Shown in pieces: positions 114 through 62,402 of a stretch of DNA of 64,000 bases. The notes under the pieces are model-generated. The model was not told the origin of the DNA, ran no database searches, and worked only from the letters and a program-made list of their open reading frames with translations. The DNA is from Agelas oroides (Eukaryota; Porifera; Demospongiae; Agelasida; Agelasidae). The stretch is taken from NCBI GenBank assembly GCA_949130485.1, contig OX422199.1, forward strand, positions 536,501-600,500, in the 5' to 3' direction. The position numbers and the translations under genes are program-made. The first letter of the stretch is position 1; each line of letters starts with the position of its first letter.

Positions 114-21306
<21,193 letters not shown>

Positions 21307-23946: not shown

Positions 23947-26894
23947 TTAGCGGCGGAACCTCACTCTTCTGCCTACTCTACTAATTGATGACTTGTACTT
24001 CAGAGGGAGCCACAATTCTTCCACTGTTGTGTTGTGTGTGAGAGAGTCGATCAGTTTCTGAGCACCCTCCTCACCTATGGAATCATTTCGTAAGTCCAGT
24101 ACTTTCAATGACTTGTTCTTGAGCAGCGTTTCAGCAAATGCAGTAGCTCCTTTGACTCCAATTGGGTTGTGCTGCAGGTACAAATACTGCAGTGTATCAT
24201 TTGTGCACAGAGCACTTGCTAACTGACATGCTCCATCTGAGTCAATGTCACATTGTTCTAGGTCGAGGTAAACAAGGGTGTGGTTTGTCCTCAACACTGA
24301 AGCCAGTGAGATGGTGTTCTGGAGAGAAAAGTGTGAGACAACCATGTTAACCTTCTTGAGTGTGGTGTTGTGATGGAGTCCACTGATGATCTGTTCAACA
24401 GCTTCTGGAGGAAGGGCATTATGACCTGTGCGGAGCTCCTTGAGACTTGTGGATGATGACAGCAGTTCACTCAGAGCTCGGCAGTCCTCCACACCAATTC
24501 CAGTCTCGTCCAATGACAGCCTCAGATGTGAGTTATGACCTGTTAGTGATGTGATCAGTGGGACAGCCCCTCCCTGACCAATGTTGGGATTGCAGGACAG
24601 GTTGAGTTTTTTCAGTTGAGGCACATGTGGGATGAGATGGGCAAGGGTTACACAGAATTGTGAGTCTAACATATTGCTAGCTAGATCAAGTTTTTCCAAT
24701 TTGTTTCTCCATTTCTTTGGAAAATTCAACAGATGTTTCACTCCTTCAGATGTGATATCATTCTCACTCAAGTTTATTTCAGTAATCCCTCCTGTGCATT
24801 GAACTTTCTTCTCCACTGCACCTCGTACTAACATTTCAACTTCCTTATCTCCGATGCTACACTGCTCTAGGTGAATCTTCCAGGTACGGTTGCTGTGAGA
24901 CACACAGTAGCCCAACACAAAGCAGTCAAAAGGAGTAATTTGACTAAGTTGTTCAAAGAGTTGAATGTCAGATGTACCTAGTAAGTTAGCAATGACATCA
25001 CAGTCTCGTGCTTCAAACAACCAGTGCAGAGTATCAAAGGGAACCTCATATATGACACTAGCCATGTCATCATCAGATCTTTCTATACACAATGTGCTCA
25101 GCACCTCACTCGGATATCCATCGAACTTACTTACACCACATAAAAACCGCAGCACCATGTGCAGGTGGTGGTGTCTTTGGTGGTTCACGTCCAATTCAAT
25201 ATCAGAGTCATCACTAGCCTCGATATGGTATTGATAACTAAAATCATCCTCAGATTCAATGTCGGATTCATGATTAGAATCACTACTAGATTCAACAGCA
25301 GAGTCATCACTAGCCTCGATATGGTATTCATAACTAAAATCATCCTCAGATTCAATGTCGGATTCATGATCAGAGTTACCACTAGATTCAACATCAGAGT
25401 CATCACTAGCCTTGACACTAACACTGTCAAAACCAAATTCGTTTTCCTTGTATTCCCTAAAATGCTCAATCTGTTTCGCCACTGGCTGCTGTGAGAGGTG
25501 AAATGCAGCCAGATACTCTTGCACAGTCAAGTGCAGGAAGTTGTAGGAAACTGCAGCCCCTTCATCTACATACAGCTCTCGGACACGCTGCATCAGACCC
25601 AGGGTTTCAAACTTTTCCAGACTCAGACCCAGGGTTTCAAAGTCTTTTTGATGGAAAATCACCTGCTGATCATTACAGATTCCTTCGTATGCTATTCTGC
25701 CCAGTTCACACAGCTGTTGGTACACATCTTGGGGCAGGTCACTGAAATTTTGTAGGCTCCAATCCCTCTTCTTACCATGCACTGGGTGGTCAAACAGGTG
25801 GCGCAGGAGTAGACTGCGAAATAGGGAGGAATACAGTTCCGTCATGGTCTTGGGGACTAGGCTCTTGTCTTTTCTGCTGTTTCGGTAGACTTCAACCACA
25901 ATGGCAGAATTGAGAGGAATGTACATCATGCTATTGATGTGGGGGTAACATGAGATGTACTTCTTCAGGTCAGCCAGCAGTGAGGGGTCATTGGGTATGG
26001 TGCTCTCTAAATAGGATTGGATGTTGTCTTTGGTGAATCCCAGGATCTCAATATGCTGGGATATGCGTCCCTTGTAGTCCCTGTGGAGGAACTCACTTGC
26101 CCAGGGGCGGCTGGTGATGAGGACTGTGGCCTCTGGTAGCTCCCTCCCTATGATGACGTCCAGGAAAACAGAACTCTCATTGCGTAATTCCTCTGGGAGT
26201 TCATCATATCCCTCAAACAGAAGGAACACACGTTTGCCCCAAGTTCTTTGGATCTCCTCAACTGCTGCTTGCTGGATCTGGGGGTCACGGTATTGGAAGA
26301 GGTCAGAGATGTTCTTTGCAGCTCGCACACTCTTGTCTCGGAGCCTGAGGAGGACAACCAGCTGGTACTGCTGGAGCAACTTTCCCTTCCCCCACTTGCG
26401 GCACAGTTTCCAGGCAAATGTGGATTTTCCCACGCCTGGTGCCCCCTCAACAAGGATGCACTTTGGTTGTGACCCATCTGGCAGCTGGGCAATTTGGCCA
26501 ATGTCTGTGGCTCGCTTTGACTTCTTGATGTCATCAATGTTCCCATGGATTGTGTCTGTCATAAACTGATATGCCTCTGGTTTTGTGATGTCCTCCTTTT
26601 CAATAAGGGCAAGGTTGATGTATTTCTTGGATTTCACTAGCGGCCATTTGTCGTAAAATTTTAGTTTCTCTTGTGTGTAGACAGACTTGAGGTAGGAGGC
26701 ATAGGTATCAACTGCAGAGGTTTGCACACCTGGTGTTTGGTGATTGTGTTGGAAGTCACATGCTTGCATGGTGTGTTTTGGTGGTTGCAATTTGTCTGTT
26801 CTACGTCGTTTAGCTGGTGGGGAAGATGATGGCCCAGGCTGGTGTGATGGGTATTGGGGGTGTGGCTCTAGCTGTTCAGATGTCAGTTTGCTAC
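23947..26894 (-). CDS. NLR1 exon 3: NACHT and LRR
   Basis: Acceptor gtacctccag on the minus strand. The exon begins SKLTSEQLEP, has a KRRRTDK basic patch, the pre-NACHT block YASYLKSVY...KYINLALIEK, NACHT, winged-helix region, a double acidic repeat (DFSYEYHIEASDDS twice, plus-strand 25191-25420), and LRRs with one 56-residue unit of the RTNHTL...CDIDSDGACQLASAL...NPIGVKGATAFAE type. Confidence 0.9.
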
Positions 26895-29218
26895 CTGGAG
26901 GTACAATAAATATTTCCTTGAGACATAATGTGTACGATATTCCCCACTGAATATGTTGGTTACATGAGTTTAAAGAATCATAGTTCCTTTTCCCATGCCT
27001 CCTCACAATTATAGACTGCAGGTAGTAACATACATATCAATAGCCTCGTTCCCAGGCCTTCCCCGTTTTTGTTCTTCTGTTTCACTTTTCCGCTTCCATG
27101 TATTATACTGAACGCAAAGCGAAGAACAAAAACGGGAGAGACCTGGGAACAAGGCTACATATCAAGTGTTGACTTGTTTCTATGACATCAGATACTTACA
27201 CTAGGGGGGACATTCTACACTAGGGGACAAACAGCTAACAAGGGAGGAGATTGTTGGGGGACACTTTACACAAGTGTAAAATGCCCACGTGGGGGGACAT
27301 TATACATGGAGGTTTACACTCTGACATTGGTCGGTTTCTGTGTTGGTACCAGACTTAACCCCAATCGAGTACAGATCCATAACGATCTCCGCACAATCAG
27401 ACAGTGTAGTAGTTCTTTGAGCTTTTAGCTGTAACTATGGTAACCACACTGTGGTCAAAACAACCAACTTCTTTTGCAGCATATAAAATCTACCTTGAGA
27501 CTTGAGACCTGATTTGATGACTCTTCCCTTCCTTGGTGTGCTGGCCCTCTTTCCCCTCTCCCTGCCCCTCCTCCCTCTTCCTCTTCCTCCTTGGCTTCCA
27601 GAGCTGCTCCCACTGGACACAAGAGGGTCTACGCTGGCTGGCGTGCTCACTGAGGAGGCAACAGACAAGCAGACAGTGAACATCCTGTGATTGACACGAG
27701 AAACTGGATGTATGTAGTAGACTGTAGTCATAGTTATTACTCCAAATAACACACACCAGTGAGGAAACTGGTGGGAACAATTTCTGGGCAAAGAGGTTGT
27801 CCGAGAAAGTTTGAAATCGAAAGTTATTCTTGTGCATGCATGAACAGATTTTGGACAACTTTAAGACCTCTGCACACAGCTGGGTGTAAGGTTTTACACA
27901 CACTTTATGAAGACTCTAGCTAAATAACTTGCTTGACATAAGCTGTTTGCTTACACTACGTTGCAAAGACAAAGTGAAAGATTGACAGTTCGTTGTAAGT
28001 GTAGACCATGAAGAAACTGGCCCTCAAGCAGACGTACAGTCCCTTGTGTAAACGCTCATAAAGAAAAGTGACTATTTTCATGAACTAAAGTTCTTAAGCC
28101 CGTTTACACTAGCACTAGTTTCAAATCGGGCTTTATTTAGTTGCAGTCATAGGCAGCCACTCCAAAATTTCTGATTCAAGGCCACACCATGCAAATTGAT
28201 TTCATGTTTCACGGACAACCAAGTCCCAAATTTTGACCCGGGTGGCAGGCCCAAAAATAAAGGAATAATTTAGTGAACATTATATCACATCCTACAAACT
28301 TCGCAGTTGTAGTGATCTGTATTTTCTTGATGTCGGACTCCCTCCTGACCACGTTTAACTTGCATGTTCAACCTCGCTGACAATGTTGCCATAGTGTTAG
28401 GGCATGAGTAGCTCAAGAGGCTGACCACACCCACTATTAATGTGCAATTTACATTTTTCGTGATAAAATAGAGATCTGTGAAACATGAAATCAATTTGGT
28501 ATGGTCCAACTGTAAAATGTTTGCAGGCTGTATAATATGCAGAGTTCACCATCTACTTGCTCCAAGTTATTAGACAATGACATTTATTCTGGTGAACTGC
28601 GAAGACTGAATTTGTGCAGTTGGAATGTACATGAGTGAGTGTATAGCCTCGTATAGCCAAGCCAAGAGTCTGGCGGGTACAAGACTAGTGAGTGTATGAT
28701 TCTAGTCTCACAAGCAGCCATATTTTTTTGTTTCCAGCGGAAAGAGCGAGAGGGAGTCAGAGCAAGTTTCTTTCCCTCTCCCTCGATAGCTAGCTCCTCT
28801 CACTGGAAATTAACAAAGAACAATAAGACTGGCTCACAAGATTAGTGTGATCCTTAGAACAATAATTATGTAGGTCAATTTATGTACCTTCATCAACCAG
28901 AAGTCTGCACACCCTCTCTGCAAGGTCAGCTCTACTAAGCTTCAAGAAAACATCAACTAGAACTTGATACGTTGCTTTGAACAAATTCTTGTTCTTCCAC
29001 CTCCGAAGGGTTTTATATCTCTTGTCCGGTGTATTCTTTCCCTCTTCTTCTACATCCTCTTCATCTGTTTCAGTGAGTCCCAGAAGAGGTGCAACCGTCT
29101 GCCAGTTAGCTAGGAAGAGTGATATACTGGTAATGTGCTCATCAGAGCACGGCTTGTTCAGTTCGTCAGCTGAAATACCAACATGAGCGATCAGCTCCTC
29201 AAATGTGACACCAGCCAT
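23947..29218 (-). CDS. NLR1: DEATH-NACHT-LRR receptor (three exons)
   Basis: This is an intracellular NLR-type innate immune receptor, expected to oligomerise through NACHT on ligand sensing and signal through its DEATH domain. Exons on the minus strand are 29218-28888 (DEATH), 27649-27494 (linker) and 26894-23947 (NACHT-LRR); both introns are phase 1 and the total is 1,145 codons. The NACHT P-loop GAPGVGKST is near residues 313-321, a Walker-B-like FLLFEGYDELP near 386-396, and TSRPW near 423. The NACHT-associated helical region contains FLHLTVQEYLAAFHLSQQP. An acidic Ser/Asp insert follows, then ribonuclease-inhibitor-type LRRs. Start codon: MAGVTFEEL, the same position as in NLR4. It resembles the other three NLRs, above all NLR2, with which it shares exons 2-3 and the flanking introns. 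The ligand is unknown. Confidence 0.88.
27041..27157. mobile_element. 117-bp MITE with 8-bp target duplication (NLR1 intron 2)
   Basis: Ends tagcctcgttcccaggcctt and, inverted, tagccttgttcccaggtctc. CATATCAA lies directly on both sides, an 8-bp duplication of hAT type. The same insertion is present at 38000-38117, so it predates the NLR1/NLR2 duplication. Confidence 0.85.
27494..27649 (-). CDS. NLR1 exon 2: Arg/Gly-rich linker
   Basis: On the minus strand: acceptor tgcctcctcag, donor gtagat; 156 bp, phase 1 to phase 1. It encodes SSGSSSGSQGGRGRGRRGRE then RKGRVIKSGLKSQ, a basic disordered linker. It is almost identical to NLR2 exon 2. Confidence 0.8.
28888..29218 (-). CDS. NLR1 exon 1: DEATH domain
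   Basis: It encodes MAGVTFEELIAHVGISADEL and NWQTVAPLLGLTETDEEDVEEE, where the W..(V)AP.LGL...DE pattern is typical of DEATH domains, then RWKNKNLFKATYQVLVDVFL. Donor gtacat after GATGAAG, phase 1. About 15 differences in 110 residues from the NLR4 exon. An in-frame upstream extension to 29275 exists, but MAG is the start conserved with NLR4. Confidence 0.82.
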
Positions 29219-29356
29219 GTTAAAATCAACAGAGCTAGTTCCTGTGTCGGGCGACTCGCAGTGGACCACTCTCAAGCAGTGTTTGTTCGGCGCGCGTTCA
29301 GGTCAAGAGCTAGAGTGGGCAGTGTCTAGGGGAAGTCCCTTCTTTGTAATTGTGTC

Positions 29357-31073
29357 TGTCACGAAGTAAACGGGCCCCCGAAGTACGTGGTCCCCCGGCC
29401 CATTTACTCCGGAGCAGTTGGTCCCCCGGGCAATATACTTCGGGGTAACTGTTCCCCCAGGGATAATTTGCTCCGGAGTAAATGGTCCCCCCTTGAAGTG
29501 AATGGTCCCCCCTTGAAGTGAATGGTCCCCCTCCTCCAACTCCTCAACTGAGCATACTCTTCACAGTAAATGGTCCCCCAACTACTCATCTAAGAATAGC
29601 CTTACTCCAGTGTCAACTCAGGAAATATTTTATGTTTGTATGTAATAAGAACACAGCTACAATGCATACTTAATAAGAACATGAACTACACAACCAGTTG
29701 TAAGACGGTTCTATGTATACTTCCTCAGGAATGTTTTGGCATCGCTGGTGAAACCACTCCTTACACCGCCCGCACTTGGCTAGGTCACCGAAAATGTTTT
29801 GGTTCTTGTTCCACGTCAGCCTACATGTGCAGTACACATTGAAGGTTCGAACAGATTTCACCCTTGTGCGACCCAATCGTCGTGGTTTTGCGGCTGCAGG
29901 AAACTCAGACATTGTCAGGTTTTGTAGGCATGAATGGAGGTGGCACCGCATCCGTGACTGGTCAAAGGAACACAAGTGGGGATCCTTTCCTGTACAAAGT
30001 GCATACATAAATGCTATTGCAAAAAGGCCGCAATCTTGCCCTCCACTCTGGTGCTGCACATCAATGTGCCTCAGCTTGAAACTGGGGCTCTGACATTTCA
30101 TAATTGCAGCAACTTGACAGGTAAGTGTGCTGGTGTAGACAGGTGACATGCTGTCGTAAAGGTCGCAGACTTCTGGAGAGGAAAAAATGTTAGAGGAACA
30201 AACCCAATGACTTTGACTGACGTGTAATATCTGAACGAAATCCGAGTTGCTTGACTGCCACTGAAGATTCTTTGCAAGGATTTGGGTTGACTGGAGGCCA
30301 TTCTGGTCTGGGAACTGCTTCTTGAGCAGTGTCATGGCAGCCTGGATGAGTTGGTCATTCAGCCATTCTCCGCTAGTCAGGACTCGCTCATCGTGCTTAG
30401 TTAAGCTGAGTTCTCTGACCCAGTATTCAATCTCAGGCTGAGATGTGTGGTGCACTTTATCCAAATCAATGGCTTTGTCTCGTGTTTCCCCCTTTCTTAT
30501 CAGTTTTGACCTGAGTTTGGGTGCCTACACACACACACACAAAAAAAAGACACAGGTGATGTAATCAACACAATCACAATAGCATACCAGCAAGCAAGTC
30601 CCACAACCCTCATGCAAGTATATACATGTGTATGATTATAGTGATGCTTTACCTTTCCAGATGGGTCTGAATCTTCTCGCTTCCTTTTGTTTCGTCTGCT
30701 TGCCTTTGGTTTTTTGAGCTCATCTGGCTCCTTGCTGGGTTCTGTGATCTCAGGTACTTTTTCTCCGTCAGGTAGTCGTACACTCGTCTGAAAACAGCCT
30801 CTTCGTCTTCTGTGCGATGTTCTTCGTCGATGATGCATTCTCCGCCAGCTTCACAGTCGCTCTCGCCTTCCATCTCGTTTAGATTTGACACCAGTGAAAG
30901 CGTTGGAGCCATTTTATAACACTTTTTCTTCTCTTGCCGGGACGGAAGTCGGGAAGAATGCACGTGACAGAATCGCGCAAAGGGGGACCGTTTACTTCAC
31001 AGGGGGTCCATTTACTCCGGAGTAAATTATCCGGGGGGACCACGTACTTCGGGGGCCCGTTTACTTCGTGACA
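29357..31073 (-). mobile_element. 1,717-bp TIR element carrying a Ulp1-like protease with PHD finger
   Basis: Perfect 40-bp terminal inverted repeats (starting tgtcacgaagtaaacgggcc, 29357-29396 and 31034-31073) are flanked by TGTC on both sides (29353-29356, 31074-31077), a likely 4-bp target duplication. Inside each end, short motifs tttactccggag and ggtccccc recur as subterminal repeats. The only gene inside is the protease at 29670-30912. No transposase is visible, so it is either non-autonomous with cargo or mobilised in trans. Confidence 0.85.
29670..30912 (-). CDS. Ulp1/SENP-type cysteine protease with C-terminal PHD finger (transposon cargo)
   Basis: Exon 2 (30524-29670) encodes the C48-type fold: WLNDQLIQAAMTLLKKQ, catalytic His in SQSHWVCSSN, Asp in CDLYDSMSP, and Gln/Cys in HQSGGQDCGLFAIAF, so the catalytic residues look intact. 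A basic KPRRLGRTRVK hinge follows, then a PHD-like zinc finger (CTCR...CGRCKEWFHQRC...WLCSSC). Ulp1 proteases remove SUMO or related modifiers; PHD fingers read histone tails. Exon 1 (to 30653, donor gtaaag) is acidic then Lys/Arg-rich. Its best ATG (30912) is in a different frame from the part that joins exon 2 in phase; an ATG at 30838 is in the joining frame. So either the start is the inner ATG or exon 1 has a frameshift. Confidence 0.8.
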
Positions 31074-31091
31074 TGTCATTGGTCACACATG

Positions 31092-31144
31092 CTAAGCCGT
31101 GGTCTCGCGTGGCCACACCCTGGCCACGCGAGACTAGCTAAGCC
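31092..31144. repeat. Short hairpin just outside the Ulp1 element
   Basis: Arms ctcgcgtggcca and tggccacgcgag with flanking ctaagcc and ggcttag form a near-perfect palindrome, 19 bp from the right end of the Ulp1 element. Confidence 0.7.
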
Positions 31145-32243
31145 GATGGATGCCTCTGTGTGCACTGAGTTGCAGATGATCCTGAAACTAAGGAGGAAAC
31201 ATTGACAGAGACCCTCGCCACCAGGTAAAGAGGGAGCTCGGAGGGACAAAGATGAAGCCGCAAGATGCAAAGGGAAACCGTCACAAGCATCAAGGGAGGC
31301 CAGCAGGGTGTTGGAGATACCTCAGCAGACCATGTCCAGTCCTGCACCAATCATGATCCTCCCAGTGCAGAGGAGGTTGGCCAATCTTGCAGAAGTACCC
31401 TCGGCTTTGATCCTTGCATCTGAAGAGCAGTACAGCAAGTGTACATACCCACTCTGTTTTGACTTCTCCATGTGTTCCATTCACCCAACCCTTCCACGTC
31501 TTCTGTCTACAACCAGCACTTTAGGGATCTAGTTAACCTCAAGTATCCTGCAACTGTGGACAGTTTTGTGACCCAGTCTTCAACACAAGCTCTTCCTCAC
31601 TTCTGATCTCACCTGACTTACAGTTGTCATGGATACCAGAGCCACTGGGAGGAGGAGGAGATGTGGGTAAACCCCTCTAATTAGTCCAGTGCATTCTGGT
31701 CAATATTCCATCCTGACACATGAATACTAAAGTGCTAAGGTGTGGTACACTCAGCTAACCTCATACCCACACCAACATTCATGATGTACCTCAACCTCAG
31801 GTCTGATAGCAAAACCCAAAGTAATGGACGTTAAATGCAGTGCTGTGATTGTACATACACACAGCTAGCCTTGTACCCAGACCTTCTCTCTCAAGATCTG
31901 CTACACTGTCTCATTCCCCACCTCTTGTTTGCATACTGCAAGCAATCAATACCTGGAGATGGTCTGGGGAAGGTCTGGGAAAGAGGCTAAAACCTCATCA
32001 CATGCAGTGACGTATCTGGATACCAGGTGGACGTCTGGATGCACCAAGGTGATCTACACTCAGCTAGCTTCATACCCAGTTTCTATTCTGCTATATCTGC
32101 TTTACACTAGCTATAGGTTAGTGGTGTGTGAAAGCCTACTTGGTTGAATAAAAAAAAAGATTTTGGTTTCATTCTTGTGTGTGAGGTTTGAGTAAGAAGG
32201 GAGGGAGGGAAATGGTGGGGATGAATAACCTCTCATTTCATAG
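31145..32243. other. Non-coding segment between the Ulp1 element and TPR-tail copy 1
   Basis: No supported gene. A stretch at 31499-31620 (tctacaaccagcactttagg, then gtatcctgcaactgtggaca) recurs at 42368-42480, showing that this spacer is part of the duplicated unit. Confidence 0.6.
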
Positions 32244-32616
32244 GTAAGTGGAAACGATGGTGATGGCAGTGGCGAGGAAGGAGAGGGGGAGGAGGGGGGT
32301 GGTCCCACTGACCAGAAGGAAGAAGGTGACACTGACACAAGATCAAGGTCACATGAGCCGCCAGACAACCAGCCCTCTCAGCCGTCCACCTCCACTCTCC
32401 CCTCCATGGAGTCTGGGCACTCTCTGGGTCTGCCAGACGACGAGACATCAATGGACATTCCTGCGTCCCCACTGCGACCCACCCATATCTCAGGGTGAGT
32501 GAGGCTTCTATGGTGGAAGGTTACTAAGCACTCGATGTTTTGAGATGAATGAGAGAGAAAAGTTTGTGCAGAACATAAAGAAGAGGATTGTGAGGGTTGA
32601 TGGTAGTGATCAGAGC

Positions 32617-33196
32617 ACTGGCAGCTCAAACCAGGAGCCCTGGGTTCAAGACTGCTGGCTCGCTGGCAGCTCAAACCAGGAGCCCCGGGTTCAAGACTGC
32701 TGGCTCACTGGCAGTTCAAACCAGGCAGCTCAAACCGGGAGCCCCGGGTTCAAGACCGCTGGCTCGCTGGCGGCTCAAACCGGGAGCCCTGGGTTCAAGA
32801 CTGCTGACTCACTGGCGGCTCAAACCGGGAGCCCCGGGTTCAAGACTGCTGGCGGAGCCCTGGGTTCAAGACTGCTGGCTCACTGGCAGCTCAAACCGGG
32901 AGCCCCGGGTTCAAGACTGCTGGCGGAGCCCCGGGTTCAAGACTGCTGGCTCACTGGCAGTTCAAACCAGGCAGCTCAAACCGGGAGCCCCGGGTTCAAG
33001 ACCGCTGGCGGAGCCCTGGGTTCAAGACTGCTGGCTCACTGGCAGCTCAAACCGGGAGCCCTGGGTTCAAGACCGCTGGCTCACTGGCAGCTCAAACCGG
33101 GAGCCCTGGGTTCAAGACCGCTGGCTCACTGGCAGCTCAAACCGGGAGCCCTGGGTTCAAGACCGCTTGCTCACTGGCAGCTCAAACCAGGAGCCC
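32617..33196. repeat. 45-bp minisatellite with tRNA-like B-box motif (~13 copies)
   Basis: The unit ggcagctcaaaccgggagcc + ctgggttcaagaccgctggctcact repeats with partial units. The first unit is preceded by tagtgatcagagcactgg (A-box-like), and each unit has gggttcaagac (B-box-like). It therefore looks like amplification of a SINE/tRNA head. Because 45 is a multiple of 3, open frames run through it; these are not genes. Confidence 0.85.
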
Positions 33197-33435
33197 TACC
33201 CCTAGTTGGAGGGGTGTATACCGTATACCACTTCAGTCCCACTCACTCCTCCTCCTCCTCCTCCTTCCCCCTTCACCCCCCTCTCCACCACTAGCTACTC
33301 ACCCTGTGAAGAGAAAGCCACAACTAATTGTCTGGGATGAACCATCTTGTAAGCAGTGCAGTATAATTATGTACCTCGATCACCATAAAATTGCAGCCAC
33401 TGAAACTCATCTTATCTCAAGGTCAAAGGTCAAAT

Positions 33436-33438
<3 letters not shown>

Positions 33439-33519
<81 letters not shown>
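33439..33519. repeat. (CA)n microsatellite
   Basis: About 40 CA dinucleotides in the intron w34-w35 copy. The tract resumes at 33916-33937, so a SINE seems to have landed inside it. Confidence 0.95.
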
Positions 33520-33520
<1 letters not shown>

Positions 33521-33544
33521 CGGACAAACGACAAACGTAAGGAG

Positions 33545-33918
33545 CTCCCCTAATGGGGATATGCCCCCCCAGACCAATTAAGGCTGGGACCCCTGTGCGC
33601 TATTTCAGGGAACACTGGGCCTAGCACTAGACAAACTCCTGAAACCGGGCCAAGCACTCGCAGGACCACTGACTATGCCCCTCCACTGTGGTGTGGGCAC
33701 CCAAAGTCCCACCTGTACCCCAGTGGAATTAGGCACAGCCAGTGGTCTTGTCCTTCCCCAGCCTAGGGCCAGGTTCCCAATTTACTATTTTACTTGGGCC
33801 TGGGTTGGGTGCCAAGTGGAGAAAGAAAGATGTTTTTTTTTTTCTCCTGTGGTAACTGGTGGGACTTGAACCTGTGATCTTTCGATTCACAGTCAAGTGC
33901 TTTAACCACTTGGCCACA
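33545..33918 (-). mobile_element. tRNA-derived SINE inside a CA repeat
   Basis: The minus strand starts with a tRNA-like head (33918-33850): gtggccaagtggttaaagca (A-box), an anticodon-loop-like ctgtgaa, and ggttcaagtccc (B-box). A ~300-bp body follows. CA repeat flanks both sides. Confidence 0.65.
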
Positions 33919-34234
33919 CACACACACACACACACAGCTTCTAGTTCCTCATGCAGTACCAAGGGGTCCAGTTCGAAAGATTATTCGACGACAGAGAGGT
34001 GAGCTTGAGTAATAAACCTTTTTTGTTTGGGTTTTCACTGCACAGGAAATTTTGTCAACTCTGAATATGCATATCATACCTATAAATGAACTGTCTACCA
34101 AGTTGGTCTACTGAGGAATCTCTCAACTGAGTAATGTTCCCTCTCTTCTCCCTGCAGCCCCAGAGCCACGACAACCCAGTGGACAGGGGAAGAGAAACAT
34201 TTGTTTCAAGGGCAAATCTCATCAGAGCAAATAG

Positions 34235-34785
34235 TCCTCACACATGAACTGTAACCATGGAAACACTCACACAATTCACATCATCAGTGATCATGTTTAT
34301 ACTACATTCTGTGCATGTACATGCTAGCCTCGTTCCCAGGCTTCCCCCGTTTTAATTTCGCCGATCTTCCGATTCTGTGTATTATTGTGAATGCAAAGAT
34401 GAAAACGGGGGAAGCCTGGGACAGAGGCTATGCACATGCTTAATCTTTCTGTGTATGAATGTAATGTACAACCTGTTACCTAGGCAACATATAAGAAGGT
34501 TGCTCATCTCTCTTCTACAGTGGTGTTGCCTAGTTATATATCTCGATCCCCCATCCCTCCCTGGGGGTTGTAGAATGACACCCCCCACTAAGGATCTCAC
34601 CTAGCTACTACTTCTTGCAATTACCTCTAATTAGCTACCCCCTGTGAGTATCTTGGGGGTAGGGTTTACACTTGAGGAGTCATGCAAATTACACCCCAAT
34701 ATGTGAATTATTAATCAGGAACAGCTTAAAATAATTGCACAGACATTGATAATGAGCATGTATCAATTAAAATACAACTGTGATA
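34235..34785. other. Spacer between TPR-tail copy 1 and NLR2 stop
   Basis: TPR 3'-UTR-like sequence, then a MITE at 34324-34430, then AT-rich unique sequence. No gene seen. Confidence 0.6.
34324..34430. mobile_element. ~107-bp MITE with an empty site in the paralogous copies
   Basis: Ends tagcctcgttcccaggcttc and, inverted, tagcctctgtcccaggcttc. It interrupts gtgcatgcacatgct, which is uninterrupted in TPR-tail copies 3 (near 53570) and 4 (near 63460); tgtacatgc / tgcacatgc on the two sides is the probable target duplication. Confidence 0.8.
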
Positions 34786-37700
34786 TCAAAATATAGATCT
34801 GCTGCTCAAATACCAGCTCACTCTCTTGTCTACTCCACTACTGGCAATGGATGACCTGTACTTCACAAGGAGCGCCAGTTCTTTTACTGTTGTGTTGTGC
34901 GTGAGAGAGTCAATCAGTTTCTGAGTGCCCTCCTCACCTATGGAATCATCTCGTAAATTCAGTGTTTTCAATGACTTGTTCTTGAGCAGCATTTCAGCAA
35001 ATGCAGTAGCTCCTTTGACTCCAATTGGGTTAAGCCACAGGCTCAAGTTCTGCAGCGTATCATTTGTGCACAGAGCACTCGCTAACTGACATGCTCCATC
35101 TGAGTCAATGTGGCATTGTGCTAGGTCGAGGTGAACAAGGGTGTGGTTTGTCCTCAGCATTTCAGCAAATGCAGTAGCCCCTTTCACTTCAATTGAGTTG
35201 GCCTCCAGGTCCAACAGCTGCAGTGTATCATTTGCGCACAGAGCACTTGCTAACTGACATGCTCCATCTGAGTCAATGTTGCATCGTCCTACATCAAGAC
35301 ACCCAAGGGTGTGGTTTGTCCTCAGCAGTGAAGCCAGTGAGATGGTGTTTTGGAGAGAAAAGTGTGAGCCCCTCATGTGCAACCAGTCTAGCGTGGTGTT
35401 GTGATGGTGTCCACTGATGATCATCTCAACAAATTCTGGAGGGAGGTCATTGATCTCTAGTTCCCTGAGACGTGGGAATGATGACAGCAGACCTCGGAAG
35501 TCATCCACACCACCTGGAATGTCGCTCAACTTAAGAAACTCAAATGAGTTAAGAACTTTCAGTGATGTCATCAGTTGGACAGCGTCTTCCTGACCAATGT
35601 TGGGACTGAGAGACAAGGAGAGTTCTTTTAGATAAGGCACATGAGGGATGATATGGGCAAGGATGGCACAGGATTCTGAGTCTAACTCATTGTATTTTAG
35701 ATCGAGTATTTCCAATTTGTGTATCAATCGTATTGGTAAACCCAACAGATGTTTCACTCCTTCAGATGTGATATCATTCTCACTCAAGTTTATCTCAGAG
35801 ATTCCTCCTGTGTAGTGAGTTTCCTCCTCCACTGCACCTCGCACTACCATTTCCACTCCCTCATCTCCAATGTAGCAAGCTTCAAGGACAATCTTCCAGG
35901 TACAGTCACTGTGAGACACACAGTAGCCCAACGCAAAGCAGTCAAAAGGGGTCACTTTTCTTTCATACTGTTTATCAAGCTGAATGTCAGATAACCCTAG
36001 CAGTTTAGCAGTGACATCATTGTCCCGTGCTTCAAAAAACCAGTGCAGAGTATCAAAGGTGATCCTACCTACAACACCAGCTGAGTCATCACCATCTGAA
36101 TCATTACCATCCGAGTCGTCGCCAGATTCACCATCCGCGTCATCACTAGCTGAGTCATCACCATCCGAGTCGTCGCCAGATTCACCATCCGAGTCATCAC
36201 TAGCTGAGTCATCACCATCCGAGTCGTCGCCAGATTCACCATCCGAGTCATCACTAGCTGAGTCATCACCATCCGAGTCGTCACCAGATTCACCATCCGA
36301 GTCATCACTAGCTGAGTCATCACCAGACTTGTCTGCACACAATGTGTTCAGGTCCTCACTCGGATATTCGTCAAACTTCCTTATTCCACACAGAAACCGC
36401 AGCAACATGTGAAAATGGTGTCGTCGTTTTTTGACTTCCTTGTATTTCTTAAAATGTTTAATCTGTTTCTCCACTGGCTGCTGTGAGAGGTGAAATGCAG
36501 CCAGATACTCTTGCACAGTCAAGTGCAGGAAGTTGTAGGAAACTGCAGTCCCTTCATCAGCATACAACTCTGGGGCACACTGCATCAGACCCAGGGTTTC
36601 AAAGTCCTCTGGGAAATCAGAGAAAATCACCTGCTGATCATGAAGGATTCCTTCGTATGCTATTCTACCCAGTTCACACAGCTGTTGGTAGACATCTTGG
36701 GGCAGGTCACTGAAACTACATACCCTCCATCTCCTCTTCTTGCCATGCACTGGGTGGTCTAACAGGTGGCGCAGGAGCAGACTGCGAACTAGAGAGGAAT
36801 ATAGCTCTGTCATAGTCTTGGGGACTAGGGTCTCGTCTTTCCTGCTGTTTCGGTAGACTTCAACCACAATGGCAGAATTGAGCGGGATGTACATCATGCT
36901 ATTGATGTGGGGGTAACATGAGATGTACTTCTTCAAGTCAGCCAGCAGTGAGGGGTCATTGGGTATGGTGCTCTCTAAATAGGACTGGATGTTGGCTTTG
37001 GTGAATCCCAGGATCTCAATATGTTGGGATATGTGTCTCTTACATTCCAAGTGGAGAAACTCACTTGCCCAGGGACGGCTGGTGATGAGGACTGTGGCCT
37101 CTGGTAGCTCCCTCCCTGTGATGATATTCAGGAAAACAGAACTGTCACAGCGTAATTCCGTTGGGAGCTCATCGTAGCCCTCAAACAGGAGGAGCACTCC
37201 TTTACCCCCCGTTCTTTGGATCACCTCAACTGCTGTTTTCTGGATCTGGTGGTCACAGTATTGGAAGAGGTTGGAGATGTTCTTTGCAGCTTGCACACTC
37301 TTGTCTCGGAGCTTCAGGAGGACAACCAGCTGGTACTGCTGGAGCAACTTTCCCTTCCCCCACTTGCGGCATAGTTTCCAGGCAAAGGTAGATTTTCCCA
37401 CGCCTGGTGCCCCCTCAACAAGGATGCACTTTGGTTGTGACCCATCTGGCAGCTGGGCAATTTGGCCAATGTCTGTAGCTCGCTTTGACTTCTTGATGTC
37501 ATCAATGCTTCCATGGATCGTGTCTCTCATAAACTGATCGGCCTCTGGTCTTGTGATGTCATCTTTTTCAATAAGGGCAAGGTTGATGTATTTCTTGGAT
37601 TTCACTAGCGGCCATTTGTCATAAACTTGTAGTTTCTCTCGTGTGTAGACAGACTTGAGGTAGGAGGCATAGGTATCAACTGCAGAGGTTTGCACACCTG

Positions 37701-37862
37701 GTGTTTGGTGATTGTGTTGGAAGTCACATGCTTGCATGGTGTGTTTTGGTGGTTGCAATTTGTCTGTTCTACGTCGTTTAGCTGGTGGGGAAGATGATGG
37801 CCCAGGCTGGTGTGATGGGTACTGGGGGCATGGCTCTAGCTGTTCAGATGTCAGTTTGCTAC
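34786..37862 (-). CDS. NLR2 exon 3: NACHT and LRR with 54-bp acidic repeat
   Basis: The 5' part, including the KRRRTDK patch, P-loop and Walker B, is almost the same as NLR1; the LRR half is more diverged. Four copies of a 54-bp repeat (GDDSASDDSDGESGDDSD, plus-strand 36082-36333) sit between the helical region and the LRRs, at a different point from the NLR1 insert. Confidence 0.9.
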
Positions 37863-40445
37863 CTGGAGGTACAATAAATATTTCCTTGAGACATGATATT
37901 CCCCACTGAATATGTTGGTTACATGAGTTTAAAGAATCATAGTTCCTTTTCCCATGCCTCCTCACAATTATAGACTGCAGGTAGTAACATACATATCAAT
38001 AGCCTCGTTCCCAGGCCTTCCCCGTTTTTTGTTCTTCTGTTTCACTTTTCCGCTTCCATGTATTATACTGAACGCAAAGCGAAGAACAAAAACGGGAGAG
38101 ACCTGGGAACAAGGCTACATATCGAGTGTTGACTTGTTTCTATGACATCAGATACTTACACTAGGGGGGACATTCTACACTAGGGGACAAACAACTAACA
38201 AGGGAGGAGATTGTTGGGGGACACTTTACACAAGTGTAAAATGTCCACGTGGGGGGACATTATACATGGAGGTTTACATTCTGACATTGGTCTGTTTCTG
38301 TGAGGTTTGAAGTAGTCTTGGTACCAGACTTAACCCCAATCGAGTACAGATCCATAACGATCTCGGCACAATCAGACAGTGTAGTAGTTCTTTGAGCTTT
38401 TAGCTGTAACTATGGTAACCACACTGTGGTCAAAACAACCAACTTCTTTTGCAGCATATAAAATCTACCTTGAGACTTGAGACCTGATTTGACGACTCTT
38501 CCCTTCCTTGGTGTGCTGGCCCTCTTTCCCCTCCCCCTGCCCCTCCTCCCTCTTCCTCTTCCTCCTTGGCTTCCAGAGCTGCTCCCACTGGACACAAGAG
38601 GGTCTACGCTGGCTGGCGTGCTCACTGAGGAGGCAACAGACAAGCAGACGGTAGAGTGTACATCCTGTGATTGACACGAGAAACTGGATGTATGTAGTAG
38701 ACTGTAGTCATAGTTATTACTCCAAATAACACACACCAGTGAGGAAACTGGTGGGAACAATTTCTGGGCAAAGAGGTTGTCCGAGAAAGTTTGAAATCGA
38801 AAGTTATTCTTGTGCATGCATGAACAGATTTTGGACAACTTTAAGACCTTTGCACACAGCTGGTTTTACACACACTTTATGAAGACTCTAGCTAAATAAC
38901 TTGCTTGACATGAGCTGTTTGCTTACACTACGTTGCAAAGACAAAATGAAAGATTGACAGTTCGTTGTAAGTGTAGACCATGAAGAAACTGGCCCTCAAG
39001 CAGACGTGCAGTCCCTTGTGTAAACACTCATAAAGAAAAGTGACTATTTTCATGAACTAAAGTTCTTAAGCCCGTTTACACTAGCACTAGTTTCAAATCG
39101 GGCTTTATTTAGTTGCAGTCATAGGCAGCCACTCCAAAATTTCTGATTCAAGGCCACACCAAATTGATTTCATGTTTCACGGACAACCAAGTCCCAAATG
39201 TTGACCCGGGTGGCAGGCCCAAAAATAAAGAATTAATTTATCACATCCTACAAACTTCGCAGTTGTAGTAATCTGTATTTTCTTGATGTCGGACTCCCTT
39301 CTGACCACATTTAACTTGCATGCTCAACCTCACTGACGATGTTGCCATAGTGTTAGGGCATGAGTAGCTCGTGAGGCTGACCACACCCACTAATGTGCTC
39401 TACCAGTTTTGTTCCAGACTCACAGTTAATGGAGGCACAGTGGAACCCTGATCTATAGGCACCACTGAAAAGCGGCCATCTACGATAATGAGGATACTCG
39501 TTTGGTCCCGAATGTATTTGCATATCTTTGTGTACAATCAAAACCCCTGAAATGTGGAACCCCCGTATTCCGTAAAGCGGATAAGTGTTTCGGTCCCACT
39601 AGTACCAAAACCGTACAAAATTCAGTCAATAATGCAGACGGCCGCATGCCTCTCACGAACTAAGATTGTTCACCACTGCTGATTGATTCAACAACTGTAC
39701 ATTATAATAACACTGGTACACATAGTAGGCTCTGGTTAGCCTTCCTCACCAGCGTACAGCAAGACAGAGCTCTGGAATGCGGCTTCATAGTGCTCAACAG
39801 CACACTGCACTGCCACCCCTACTGAAAGTATGCCAGAAGCCTCTGAAATACAGACGCCGCTATATTCCGGACATGCAGTGGTGGTCCTATGGTGTCCGCA
39901 TTAGAGAGGTTTCACTGTATATACCATGATCCCAGCATAGATAATAGAATGTGTACTAGGATTGGAAACATGCACAACAACAAACTCAGGCCCCTGGGTT
40001 TTTCAGACACCTATTGCCAAGTTTGGTATGCATAAGACTGTCAAGATATGAACTGATCAACTGGTATACTGATTAGTGAAGATTACACATCTACTTATTT
40101 AGCCTAGCAGGCTATACTAGACGGTGCAGTGTAACACAACTCACCTTCTGGTTTTGGTAGTAGCTTCAGCAAGACTTGTGGATTGAGATGCTTCTCTAAA
40201 ACATCGTAGAAGTCTTGATACAGTGGCGGAGCTATCTTGACTGGAGTAATGATACATTGGAGTAGGTCATTAGCTCTTTCAAGTGGAGGGGTTGCTTTGG
40301 CGTTGACAATCCTGTCGTAGTCCTCGTCACCGAGCAGTCGTAGGCCTTTCAAGTCATTAGCGATAAGGGTGAGGTTTCCACGGATTAGCGCAGCAAGGTC
40401 ATTGGCATTCTGTTCAATAGCTTTCACTTGAGGAGAATCGTCCAT
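34786..40445 (-). CDS. NLR2: CARD-like-NACHT-LRR receptor (three exons)
   Basis: Exons on the minus strand are 40445-40145 (effector), 38624-38469 (linker) and 37862-34786 (NACHT-LRR), both introns phase 1, 1,178 codons in all. Exons 2-3 are near-identical to NLR1 in their 5' part, but exon 1 encodes a CARD-like domain instead of DEATH. Key motifs: GAPGVGKST, VLLLFEGYDELP, TSRPWASEFL, FLHLTVQEYLAAFHLSQQP. After the helical region comes an 18-residue acidic repeat, then RI-type LRRs with two 56-residue units. A NACHT-LRR of this type is an intracellular sensor; the ligand is unknown. Confidence 0.87.
36082..36333. repeat. 54-bp in-frame coding minisatellite in NLR2
   Basis: An 18-codon Ser/Asp/Gly/Glu unit repeats about four times with only point changes, keeping the frame. 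Confidence 0.93.
38000..38117. mobile_element. 118-bp MITE, duplicated with NLR2
   Basis: Same element and same CATATCAA target duplication as at 27041-27157. Confidence 0.85.
38469..38624 (-). CDS. NLR2 exon 2: Arg/Gly-rich linker
   Basis: 156 bp, phase 1 to phase 1, GRGRGRRGRGRGKRAST type. Nearly identical to NLR1 exon 2 (one Glu to Gly change in the RG tract). Confidence 0.8.
39403..40144. other. NLR2 intron 1, unique part
   Basis: No similarity to the NLR1 intron seen and no ORF of interest. It separates the duplicated part of the gene from the CARD exon. Confidence 0.55.
40145..40445 (-). CDS. NLR2 exon 1: CARD-like effector
   Basis: From MDDSPQVKAIEQNANDLAAL through IANDLKGLRLLGDEDYDRIV, RANDLLQCIITPV and YQDFYDVLEKHLNPQVLLKL: an all-helical pattern like CARD (L..GL...EDYDRI, RA..LL..I, F...L). 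Donor gtgagt after CCAGAAG, phase 1. The start at 40445 is chosen because it directly precedes the domain; the frame stays open upstream to 40532 with a hydrophobic stretch that might be intron. Confidence 0.7.
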
Positions 40446-44536: not shown

Positions 44537-44628
44537 TCCTTGCACAACATGAACTGTAACCATGGATACACTCACACAATTCACATCATCAGTGATCATG
44601 TTTATACTTCCTTCAGTGCATAAGTAAT

Positions 44629-45283: not shown

Positions 45284-48200
45284 TCAAGAACTGTAGACGA
45301 AATTGGTGAATATTACTCTGTTGTCTACTACACTGCTGGCAATAGATGATGACCAAAACCCCTTATCAAGCACCAGACTTTCCAATGTTGTGTTGTGTGA
45401 GAGAGATTCAATCAGTTTCTGAGCACCCTCCTCACCTATACGATAATCTGAGAAGCCTAGTACTTTTAATGACTTGTTCTTGAGTAGCATTTCAGCAAAT
45501 GCAGTAGCTCCTTTGACTCCAATTGAGTTGCCCTCCAGGTACAAGTTCTGTAGTGCATCATTTGTGGACAGAGCACTTGCTAACTGACATGCTCCATCTG
45601 AGTCAATTTCGCAGTGTCCAAGGTCTATGTGAACAACGGTGTGGTTTGTTCTTAGCATTTCAGCAAATGCAATAGCTCCTTTGACTCCAATTGAGTTGTA
45701 CTCCAGGTCCAACCACTGTAGTGTATCATTTGTGCACAGTACACTGGCTATCTGGCACACTCCATCTGAGTCAATGTTGCAGTGTCCTAGGTTGAGGTGA
45801 ACAAGGGTGTGGTTTGTCCTCAGCATTTCAGCAAATGCAGTAGCTCCTTTGACTTCAATTGGGTTAAGCCACAGGCTCAACTTCTGCAGTGTGTCATTTG
45901 TGCTCAGAGCATTCGCTAACTGACATGCTCCATCTGAGTCAATGTCACATGCATCTAGGTTGAGGTCAACAAGGGTGTGGTTTGTTCTCAGCACTGGAGC
46001 CAGTGAGATGGTGTTCTGGAGAGAAAAGTGTGAGCCCCACACCCACAACTTATCCAGTGTGATGTTATGATAGAGTCCACTTATAACCAGTTCAACTGCT
46101 TCTGGAGAGAGAGCATTCCAACTAATGTTAAGCTCCTTGAGACTTGTGGATGATGACAGCAGTTCACTCAGAGCTTGGCAGTCCTCCACACCAATTCCAG
46201 TATTATTTAATGACAGTTTTTCAAGTGAGTTATGAGCTGTCAGTGATGTAATCAGTGGGACAGCCCCTCCCTGACCAATGGAATTGTAAAACAAAATGAG
46301 TTCTTTTAGATGAGGAACATGTCGGACAAGAAGGGCTAGGGCTGCACAGGATAGTAAGTTGAATTCATTGAAGGTTAGATCGAGTGTTTCTAATCTGATG
46401 ATCAATTGTGGAAAAATTAACAGTTCTACAGATGTGATACCATTCCCATTCAAGTTTATCTCAGAGATACTTCCTGTGCAGTGTGTTTCCTCCTCCACTG
46501 CACCTCGCAGTAACATCTGTGCTCCCTCATCTCCAATATCACAGCGGCTGAGGTCAATGCTCCAGGTACAGTTGCTGTGAGACACACAGTAGCCCAACAC
46601 AAAGCAATCAAAAGGAGTCACTTCACTAGAATGTTCATGAAGTTGAATATCAGGTAACGTAAGTAATTTAGGGATGACATCATTGTCATGTGCTTCAAAC
46701 AACCAGTGCAGAGTATTGAAGGTGACCTCAAATGTGACAATACCTGAGTCATCACAGGACTTCTCCTCTATGCACAATGTGTTTAGCACCTCATTCGGAT
46801 AGTCACTGAACTTCCTTACTCCAGACAGAAACCGCAGCACCATGTGAAAGTGTTGGTGTTTGTGGTAGTCCAAGCATTCCTTTTGTTGATTGGGGTCATC
46901 CTTGTGCTGTCTCTCATGCCCCTTGTATTCCTTTAAGTGTTCAATCTGTTTCTCCACTGGCTGCTGTGAGAGGTGAAATGCAGCCAGATACTCTTGCACA
47001 GTCAAGTGCAGGAAGTTGTAGGAAACTGCAGCCCCTTCATCTACATAAAGCTCTGGGGCACACTGCATCAGACCCAAGGTTTCAAAGTCTTCTGGGAGAT
47101 CAGTGAAAATCACCTGCTGATCATGAAGAATTCCTTCATATGCTATTTTGCCAAGTTCACACAGCTGTTGGTACACATCTTGGGGCAGGTCACTGAAACT
47201 ACGTACTCTCCACCTCCTCTTCTTGCCATGCACTGGGTGGTCTAACAGGTGACGCAGGAGCAGACTGCGAACTAGGGAGGAATACAGCTCTGTCATGGTC
47301 TTGGGAACTAGGGTTTCGTCTTTCCTGCTGTTTCGGTAGACTTCAACCACAATGGCAGAATTGAGAGGGATGTACATCATGCTATTGATGTGGGGGTAAC
47401 ATGAGATGTACTTCTTCAAGTCAGCCAGCAGTGAGGGGTCATTGGGTATGGTGCTCTCTAAATAGGACTGAATGTCAGCTTTGGTGAATCCCAGGATCTC
47501 AATATGCTGGGATATGTGCCTCATACATTCTCTGTGGAGGAACTCACTTGCCCAGGGACGGCTGGTGATGAGGACTGTGGCCTCTGGTAGCTCCCTCCCT
47601 GTGATGACATCCAGGAAGACAGAACTAGCGGTACGTAACTTGTCTGGGAGCTCATCATATCCCTCAAAAAGAAGGAGCACTCCCTTGCCTCCTGTATCTT
47701 GGATATCCTCAACTGCTGTTTGCTGAATATGACGTCTGTGGTATTGAAAAAGGTCAGAGATGTTCTTTGCAGCTTGCACACTCTTGTCTCGGAGCCTCAG
47801 GAGAACAACCAGCTTGTACTGCTGGAGCAACATTCCCTTCCCCCACTTGTGGCACAGTTTCCAGGCAAAGGTAGACTTTCCAATGCCTGGTGCCCCCTCC
47901 ACAAGGATGCACTTTGGCTGTGACCTATTCGGCAACTGGGCAACTTGGCATATATTCATCGCTCGCTTTGACATCTTGATGTCATCAATGTTCCCATGGA
48001 TTGTGGCTCTCATAAACTGATATGCCTCTGGTTTTGTGATGTCATCTATTTCAATGAGGGCGAGGTTGATGTATTTCTTGGATTTTACTTGTGGCCATTT
48101 GTCATAAACTTGTAGTTTCTCTCGTGTGTAGACAGACTTGAGGTAGGAGGCATAGGTATCAACTGCAGACAATTGCACGCCTGGTGTTTGGTAAGTGTGT

Positions 48201-48330
48201 TGGAAGTTACATGTTTGTATGGTATGTTCCTGGGGTTGTAAGATGTCTGCTTTAAGTTGAGCTGGTGGGGGTGATGATGGTCCAGGATGGTGTGGTGGGT
48301 ATGGCTGTAGCTGCTCAGATGTCAGTATAC
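45284..48330 (-). CDS. NLR3 exon 3: NACHT and LRR
   Basis: Acceptor gtactttcag on the minus strand, then ILTSEQLQPYPPHHPGPSS, pre-NACHT, NACHT, helical region and LRRs. The 168-bp LRR unit (RTNHT...) occurs three times, at about 45640, 45808 and 45976 on the plus strand. Confidence 0.9.
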
Positions 48331-52512: not shown

Positions 52513-53484
<972 letters not shown>

Positions 53485-57199: not shown

Positions 57200-58333
57200 C
57201 TGAAGGTAGAAGCAATAGCTACTAACTAGGGGGGATGTAGAACATTGTGGGGCGAGCATGAGCAAGCGATGCACTACAGCATTGACTGTTATGTAGCAGC
57301 ACGCCTAGCCCTGTCAGTGTCGAACCAGTGAGGGGAGGTCTATGTGCTTCACTGTTTTGTGTAAATGGGAAGGTGAATGAAATTTAAAATTAGACACTTG
57401 CTCTGTGGCAGTACATTAGCTACTTGTGGTTAGTACCAGTTGCTAAGGTGTTGCTATATATGAGTCATCTCTGTTATCTGTGGCTACAGTGTGTAGTTAC
57501 TTGACAATCTTAAACTTCAGCAGGCTACACAATATTGGTACACACAGTTAGTCTTGTTCTCAGACCCCACCCGAGAGAAGAGGGTGACATTCAGCTGATT
57601 CCTCAGGCTTCATGAAGCCTATGGAGTCGGGTAAATGTCACTAGACACTCTCTTCCTACCAGTGTGAACTTGAGGCTAGCTAGTGTCATTGTAGCACAGA
57701 TGTACAGTCAGACTCCAGACCTGGTTTCGTCGCTCCAGTAGGTGTGCTAGGCCTCTTGCCCCTCCCCCTGCCCCTCCCCCTGCCCCTCCCCCTTTCTCCT
57801 TGACTTCCAGAGCTTCTTGTGGAACTGCTCTTAGACACAAGTGGGTCTCCCCTGGCAGATGTGCTTGCTGTTGAGGAGATAGAGGATAAGATAGCAGAGT
57901 GCACATCAAAGAGTTGTGTGGCTGGAATGCACATGAGTGGGCGTATGATCCTTAGGAAACTACAAACTGCAAAAGGGCTGCACTGATTTTGTACACTAGT
58001 ACCTTCATCAGCCAGAAGTCTGCACACCTTCTCTGCGAGGTTGGTCTTACCAAGCTTTAAGAAAACATCAACTAGAACTCGATACGTTGCTTTGAACAAA
58101 TTCTTGTTCTTCCATCTCCGAAGGGTTTTATATCTCTTGTCCTGTGTCTTCTTTCCCTCTTCTTCTACATCCTCTTCATCTGTTTCAGTGAGTCCCAGGT
58201 GGGGTGCAACTGTCTGCCAGTTTGTGAGGAAGAGCGATATACTGGTAATATGCTCATCAGAACACGGCTTGTTCAGTTTGTCAGCTGAAATGCCAACATA
58301 ACCAATCAGCTCCTCAAATGTGATACCAGCCAT
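54711..58333 (-). CDS. NLR4: DEATH-NACHT-LRR receptor (three exons)
   Basis: Exons on the minus strand are 58333-58003 (DEATH), 57867-57721 (linker) and 57199-54711 (NACHT-LRR); phase-1 introns; 989 codons, the shortest of the four. P-loop GAPGVGKST, Walker-B-like FLLFEGYDELP, TSRPWASEFL, FLHLTVQEYLAAFYLSQQP. The segment between exon start and pre-NACHT is reduced and lacks the KRRR patch; the post-helical linker is Gln-rich (KKQQQRQQQQHFHM); one 56-residue LRR unit. The DEATH exon closely matches NLR1, not its neighbours NLR2/NLR3. Intracellular immune sensor by architecture. Confidence 0.87.
57721..57867 (-). CDS. NLR4 exon 2: Arg/Gly-rich linker
   Basis: 147 bp, phase 1 both sides; encodes SSSTRSSGSQGERGRGRGRG then KRPSTPTGATKP. 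The donor is gtctgg after AAACCAG, the same place as in NLR3. Confidence 0.75.
58003..58333 (-). CDS. NLR4 exon 1: DEATH domain
   Basis: MAGITFEELIGYVGISADKL then NWQTVAPHLGLTETDEEDVE; donor gtacta after GATGAAG, phase 1. The MAG start is conserved with NLR1. A MITE begins 28 bp upstream of the ATG. Confidence 0.82.
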
Positions 58334-62280: not shown

Positions 62281-62399
<119 letters not shown>

Positions 62400-62402
62400 T
62401 AC

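Follow-up and report, generated by a model that had tools for sequence, protein, structure and literature searches.

NLRs are well known to carry differing N-terminal domains, and a change of such a head is usually deduced from distant comparisons. The locus described here, from the sponge Agelas oroides, is a well-resolved case within this known modularity. The main text of a report on another sponge, Dysidea avara, describes NLRC (CARD), NLRD (DEATH) and NLRX genes in one genome, and cites 15 Amphimedon NLRCs nested in a clade that also contains NLRX and NLRD genes (PMC12909245). Our locus resembles the D. avara repertoire as portrayed there in that CARD-NACHT-LRR and DEATH-NACHT-LRR genes occur together, in large species-specific expansions, with some near-identical neighbours and some membrane-bound NLRs. 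Whereas NLRC and NLRD genes form distinct clusters in D. avara, CARD- and DEATH-bearing genes are here interleaved on one body tree and breakpoints are visible; the near-identical neighbours reported from D. avara are all NLRX, and the main text of that paper mentions neither recombination nor gene conversion, tandem copies or domain shuffling (PMC12909245).

Zebrafish NLR-B30.2 genes are likewise clustered, with conversion that is uneven across gene parts and with groups that have differing N-terminal domains (PMC4852459). There, the N-terminal and NACHT parts share a clear grouping which the C-terminal LRR and B30.2 parts do not, whereas here it is the N-terminal effector that does not follow the NACHT domain. 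By their titles, papers on brown-algal ROCO (PMC11378527) and NB-ARC proteins also have exon shuffling yielding diverse candidate immune receptors; these receptors belong to different families, and alternative splicing is mentioned for them, whereas the module here is a single 5' effector exon. Fungal NLRs show variable domain organisation around shared NB domains, and unequal crossing over and conversion have been proposed for their clusters (PMC12258605). In that case, the mechanism is proposed from repertoire data, whereas here breakpoints and a relic are seen, and in an animal. A literature search of titles and abstract openings, mostly outside the subscription literature, yielded no account of effector-exon replacement with breakpoints in animal NLRs. 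The reading that we favour, at a probability of roughly 0.78, is that effector first exons have been exchanged as modules between NLR family members via ectopic recombination.

The window, that is, the whole stretch of 64,000 nucleotides that was analysed, corresponds to C17:536501-600500, where C17 denotes its contig in the animal's own 259-Mb assembly. The minus strand of the window carries four NLR genes (NLR1-NLR4) with the same exon plan, in which an effector exon is followed by a short linker exon rich in Ser, Gly and Arg codons and then by a single large exon for NACHT and LRRs:

28888..29218, minus strand: NLR1 exon 1, DEATH effector, 110 codons + 1 nt; phase-1 donor AAG/GTACAT; Pfam Death E 1e-8
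27494..27649, minus strand: NLR1 exon 2, Ser/Gly/Arg linker, phase 1 at both ends; donor AAG/GTAGAT taken, upstream CAG/GTCTC a possible alternative donor
23947..26894, minus strand: NLR1 exon 3, NACHT, HD2-like and LRR body, 981 aa
40145..40445, minus strand: NLR2 exon 1, CARD-a effector; phase-1 donor AAG/GTGAGT
38469..38624, minus strand: NLR2 exon 2, linker
34786..37862, minus strand: NLR2 exon 3, NACHT and LRR body, 1024 aa
50827..51139, minus strand: NLR3 exon 1, CARD-b effector; phase-1 donor ACA/GTAAGT; weak AF2 model, best matches CARDs
49523..49666, minus strand: NLR3 exon 2, linker
45284..48330, minus strand: NLR3 exon 3, NACHT and LRR body
58003..58333, minus strand: NLR4 exon 1, DEATH effector; Pfam Death E 1.1e-8
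57721..57867, minus strand: NLR4 exon 2, linker
54711..57199, minus strand: NLR4 exon 3, NACHT and LRR body

All four bodies match the Pfam NACHT family (PF05729, E 4e-20 to 3e-19) and contain C-terminal LRRs (LRR_6); for the NLR1 body, the top PDB matches are 5irm/5irl, followed by ribonuclease inhibitors and NLRP3. The effector exons lie upstream of the bodies on the same strand, and joining in phase 1 gives one open coding frame per gene, of 1144, 1177, 1167 and 988 aa for NLR1, NLR2, NLR3 and NLR4, respectively. In NLR4, intron 1 is only 135 nt long and itself open in frame with DEATH. NLR1-NLR4 appear to be three-exon animal NLR genes with a death-fold effector in exon 1 and a linker bounded by phase 1 on either side in exon 2, and position, strand and phase suggest that exon 1 is spliced to its own body in every gene. 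A scan of viral and prokaryote contigs with the window bodies retrieved no relatives.

The earlier sequence-only reading held that all effector exons end in phase 1, and the joined frames bear this out in 4 of 4 window genes, with a higher-scoring GT nearby in NLR3 and NLR4. For 23 effector exons of four kinds (DEATH, CARD-a, CARD-b and a membrane-anchored DEATH at locus L015), all GTs close to the exon end were scored in all phases against a generic donor consensus; the best-scoring donor was in phase 1 in 20 of these exons, which are not independent of each other because of shared ancestry. In the other three (NLR3, NLR4 and L024), a GT in phase 2 or 0 outscores the phase-1 GT.

The first exons of NLR1 and NLR4 match Pfam Death (PF00531) with 35.6 and 35.5 bits, respectively, at a cut-off of 22.6, and are 91% identical in nucleotide and 86% in amino acid sequence, so that the initial identification of a DEATH exon on NLR1, and of almost the same exon on NLR4, proved correct. 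It had also been stated that exon 1 of NLR2 is unrelated to the NLR1 DEATH exon; indeed, no sequence relation between them is detectable, and the effector exons of NLR2 and NLR3 align neither with each other (BLASTP E 1.5) nor with DEATH. A hidden DEATH exon upstream of NLR2, which would have been used in place of the CARD-like one, was not found: tblastn gave none at NLR2 among the matches listed, and when a DEATH-exon HMM was run against 1612 six-frame window segments of at least 25 aa, nothing apart from the two known exons fell below E 0.5, the best of the remaining hits being at E 0.8.

The description of the NLR2 exon as CARD-like is compatible with structure prediction but not supported by Pfam. 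The predicted six-helix model of CARD-a resembles CARDs, with a designed protein as the top Foldseek match, but the Pfam CARD family is matched neither by NLR2 nor by its relative L030, and by relative L029 at E 0.084. For CARD-b of NLR3, the AF2 model is poor (pLDDT 54) and its best matches are CARDs; 2 of 8 copies tested match Pfam CARD, both below the cut-off, and the CARD-b alignment, used as a profile against the PDB, had no hits. Foldseek gave no match at E 0.001 or better for the models of either kind, and the assignment of CARD-a and CARD-b to the CARDs is a provisional one, by fold resemblance. A 'lysozyme' PDB match to CARD-a (E 6e-6), consisting of three weak repeat matches (i-E 3.5-27), was dismissed as chance, as was the hit of a single CARD-b copy to Pfam 'Tax' (E 0.0018).

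The argument had originally been built on near-identical NLR1 and NLR2 bodies, a description which is wrong for exon 3 as a whole and applies to a tract of ~1.5 kb:

26716..28195, minus strand: NLR1/NLR2 98.8% identical tract, probable gene conversion (NLR2 ~37684-39163)
28445..28580, minus strand: junction interval in NLR1 intron 1, with DEATH-lineage intron on the 5' side and NLR2-like sequence on the 3' side

From 28195 to 26716, DNA identity between the two genes is 98.8% overall and 97.9-99.6% per 250-column bin. It is lower, at 95.3%, from 28445 to 28195 (Fisher p 7e-4), and falls to 90-94% from 26716 to 25468 and mostly to 77-86% beyond, but with ~91% near the 3' end, so that identity over the remainder of exon 3 is 77-94%. 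The stretch that had been called almost identical (26000-28443) accordingly includes the 98-99% tract, but ~0.7 kb of it is only 90-94% identical. In the four-gene alignment, a sister relationship of NLR1 and NLR2 is resolved for exon 3 codons 1-170 alone, where both alternative topologies are rejected (AU p 0.02), and the three later parts of the exon give no resolved topology. In a run-of-agreement test, the NLR1-NLR2 result was equalled in 0 of 5000 permutations and that of NLR2-NLR3 in 1 of 5000, and the other four pairs gave 48-642 of 5000 (48, 53 and 129 for three of them), suggesting that smaller exchanges probably happened among other window pairs, too. NLR1 and NLR2 are homologous paralogues with a block of raised identity and lower identity on both sides, the hallmark used here for gene conversion, and the 98.8% tract was probably produced by this process inside an older homology boundary, which makes the argument from NLR1/NLR2 identity weaker than it had seemed.

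The reported abrupt end of the homology inside intron 1 is real, at 28445 in NLR1 and 39398 in NLR2. Further upstream, the NLR1 block 28580-28644 resembles the introns of the DEATH genes NLR4, L013 and L021 (78-83% over 33-65 bp); it is found in 3 of the 6 other DEATH loci of the same body family, and in NLR4 an equally good match was obtained with 0 of 500 shuffles. These alignments reveal NLR1 intron 1 as chimeric, DEATH-gene-like down to 28611-28580 and NLR2-like from 28445 onward. A decayed exon 2 considered in the same intron was dropped, as 25 of 500 dinucleotide shuffles were as good. Between NLR1 and NLR4, dS is ~0.23 in the DEATH exon and 0.18-0.46 in the bodies, depending on the segment; these values being similar, NLR1 need not be the gene whose head changed. 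Within the window alone, recombination in intron 1 is visible, but the pattern does not tell whether head or body moved and could stem from homogenisation of the bodies.

On the scale of the contig, the window bodies belong to a family (family A) whose NACHT part is present in all 19 C17 loci listed, 18 of them distinct; the list rests on 45 scored candidates out of 488, and the tree comprises the C17 bodies, except for one more body of family A that lies within L010 (near C17:252-253k), beside a CARD-like stretch. The nearest same-strand effector is DEATH at 7 of the 19 loci, CARD-b at 9 and CARD-a at one (NLR2); the remaining two are L016, with a CARD-like stretch in the same frame, and L015, with a membrane-anchored DEATH ORF. 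The effector mostly lies 0.5-2.8 kb from the body on the same strand, an arrangement that recurs across many loci, and the putative effector is farther upstream in L021 (~6 kb) and L015 (~4.5 kb). In-frame stops occur in 4 of the 19 family-A stretches on C17 (L010, L017, L019 and L021). On the NACHT tree, in which 9 of 15 inner branches are weak, DEATH requires 5 changes, at least 4 of which are forced by well-supported branches, and CARD-b requires 6, at least 3 of them forced. Shuffled labels gave counts as low in 149 of 500 (DEATH) and 219 of 500 (CARD-b) trials, so that the labels are not more clustered than expected by chance, and one-clade tests reject both a single DEATH clade (p 1.7e-4) and a single CARD-b clade (p 9.2e-5). 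Across the body tree the types of effector are dispersed, with DEATH- and CARD-bearing genes interleaved.

The same heads are found on a second NACHT-LRR family (family B), which has hydrophobic membrane-like segments and is only 27-29% identical to the NLR1 body. Nine family-B loci were listed (67-100% identical) and four, all on C17, examined; L024 and L025 carry DEATH exons with 88% and 87% amino acid identity to that of NLR1, and L026 and L027 carry CARD-b exons 78% and 70% identical to that of NLR3. Between the families, dS of the DEATH exons is 0.10-0.28, no larger than inside family A, where it is 0.13-0.33 if one identical pair is set aside; in the tree of DEATH exons, no branch is well supported. 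For CARD-b, the exon of L020 in family A and that of L027 in family B form a sister pair with 100/99 support and have 478 alignment columns in common, including 124 bases of 5' flank. Similarly, a 5'-flank block present in 4 of the 7 family-A DEATH loci (NLR1, L021, L022 and L023) is shared with L025, where it is displaced by ~230 bp (75-79% identity). CARD-a has 15 matches in the genome, one on C17 (NLR2) and 14 on C1, C2, C3, C8 and C20, none of the latter less than 140 kb from a listed family-A body. One of these copies (L029) precedes an 866-aa STAND NTPase (AAA_16 E 8e-8, NACHT 1e-5, NB-ARC 3e-5) and another (L030) a DEATH ORF (E 0.0014). Two other members of family B (C17:1472418-1474169 and C14:5417807-5419555) have a divergent DEATH (27% to that of NLR1) in the same frame as NACHT; this may be the original head of the family.

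Two pairs of loci bear on the replacement of a head. Within family B, L024 (DEATH) and L027 (CARD-b) share 91% DNA identity along 2297 columns that run from intron 1 to within NACHT, and 80-86% further on, the bodies having 89% protein identity over 408 aa. The upstream flanks are homologous as well (72-79%), with an unrelated effector island between the flanks. L024 also contains fragments of the start of the CARD-b exon and of its 5' flank, inverted and scrambled (78-89% identity, block lengths 66-176 bp), which sequence comparison identifies as the relic of a replaced CARD-b effector. The L024 body is interrupted by a ~460-bp insert with stops and, consequently, this locus may be a pseudogene unless the insert is spliced out. 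Within family A, L013 (DEATH) matches L015 with 99% identity along 3174 columns, up to a point 113 bp before the DEATH exon, where the homology ends. The membrane-anchored DEATH ORF of L015 (L015:2284-2892; Pfam E 5.6e-11), 4.5 kb upstream of the body and with a strong phase-1 donor, is possibly a very recent fourth head.

Unrelated effectors hence stand before sister bodies, near-identical effectors before unrelated bodies, the exons are compatible in phase and, in the L024/L027 pair, homologous flanks surround the exchanged effector. If DEATH-NLRs and CARD-NLRs were instead old and separate lineages, with NACHT kept alike by conversion and no effector ever moved, the 98.8% tract with its lower-identity flanks, the sisterhood limited to this tract and the comparable NLR2-NLR3 segment would all be expected, and strong conversion is on record for zebrafish NLRs (PMC4852459). 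This account is nevertheless unlikely: it leaves unexplained the near-identical effectors on bodies as distant as those of families A and B, the sister CARD-b pair L020/L027 and both the CARD relic and the homologous flanks of L024. The genome favours exchange over such homogenisation because the same effectors front both body families and the types are intermixed on the tree. It is distinctly unlikely, too, that both families have had their effectors since ancient times and that conversion acting on exon 1 alone has kept these exons similar, no cassette being replaced. The main DEATH homology block between families is about the size of the exon itself (-12 to +358 around the 331-nt exon), and conversion that stays within the exon could give rise to some of what is seen. 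However, the 5'-flank block shared by L025 and the family-A DEATH loci, the CARD-b homology between families, which takes in 5' flank and intron start, and the different effectors of L024 and L027 in the same slot all speak against it. Exon-sized DEATH homology was rejected as proof of exon-only transfer, since between family-A members of similar dS, too, alignable flanks are often missing, which renders exon-limited homology uninformative.

Alternatively, the effector exons could be separate genes or alternative first exons that do not set the output of the body, as the long gaps in L021 and L015 might indicate. We regard such a gene-model artefact as very improbable, given that all four window genes are open when joined, that DEATH and linker of NLR4 share one open frame across the short intron and that the same-strand pairing recurs at so many loci. 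Least credible is that collapsed haplotypes or chimeric joins in the assembly created the mosaics: although the L022/L023 palindrome can be an artefact of this kind, NLR1 and NLR2 differ along their alignment, and the breakpoints differ among NLR1/NLR2, L013/L015 and L024/L027.

Under the favoured reading, modular exchange of first exons, the cassette would comprise the promoter-proximal flank, the effector exon and the start of intron 1, and, on the simplest account, ectopic recombination between dispersed relatives would swap such 5' cassettes, breaking them in intron 1 and in the 5' flank. The phase-1 ends of the effector exons would allow a cassette to be joined to another body without a frameshift. 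Later gene conversion, as in the NLR1/NLR2 tract, would homogenise the bodies. Of the 'modular rewiring of signalling output' proposed at the outset, the modular exon exchange is the part that is supported, with the same exons before two body families and scattered on the body tree; DEATH and CARD heads would presumably recruit different adaptors, in which case an exchange would alter the output while the sensor is kept. Should the signals of the heads prove to differ, the cluster would be a natural receptor set with similar sensors and different outputs, and the independent evolution of sensor versus output would become directly testable. The occurrence of junctions, homologous flanks, a relic of a replaced exon and a cross-family sister pair in one genome makes mechanism, direction and rate measurable. 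A broader and more doubtful proposition, which we advance tentatively, is that a pool of circulating 5' cassettes is present on this chromosome and common to NACHT-A, membrane-bound NACHT-B and, for CARD-a, an AAA_16/NACHT-like STAND protein encoded elsewhere in the genome, heads being reassorted about as fast as bodies diverge; were this true, an antibody-less animal would keep recombining which signal each of its sensors sends.

Several further features of the region were noted. Acidic Asp/Ser/Glu-rich repeats lie between NACHT/HD2 and LRR in NLR1 (~25180-25440) and NLR2 (~36075-36344), and there are none in NLR3 and NLR4. Upstream of the CARD exon of NLR2, the frame remains open through 40446-40559, a hydrophobic stretch with its own ATG, which could be a membrane anchor or merely the pyrimidine tract of a 5'UTR acceptor. 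The NLR1 start codon is preceded, at a distance of ~140 bp, by a DNA transposon (29357-31073) whose terminal inverted repeats are perfect over 40 bp and which contains an ORF with PHD and weak Ulp1-like matches; inverted repeats are also present near the NLR3 and NLR4 effectors. We can only conjecture that the transposon and these repeats aided the exchange events. At C17:3746900-3759900, a DEATH-NLR is duplicated as a palindrome (L022 and L023) whose arms show 100% identity in the 2.3 kb that was compared; this is either a recent event or an assembly artefact. Mostly beyond the window end, L016 (C17:598500-608400) is a fifth NLR with a CARD-like region (40% to CARD-b, E 1.6e-6) that shares an open frame with NACHT, and several relatives on C4 and C11 are alike by coordinates. 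On the plus strand, there is the end of a coiled-coil gene (19107-21408), which may be TPR-like, although Pfam gave no support for TPR. Pieces of it recur at 32235-34322, 42501-44621, 52464-53582 and 61560-63471, that is, 3' of NLR2, NLR3 and NLR4 and at the window end, and because of this recurrence the duplicated unit probably included them.
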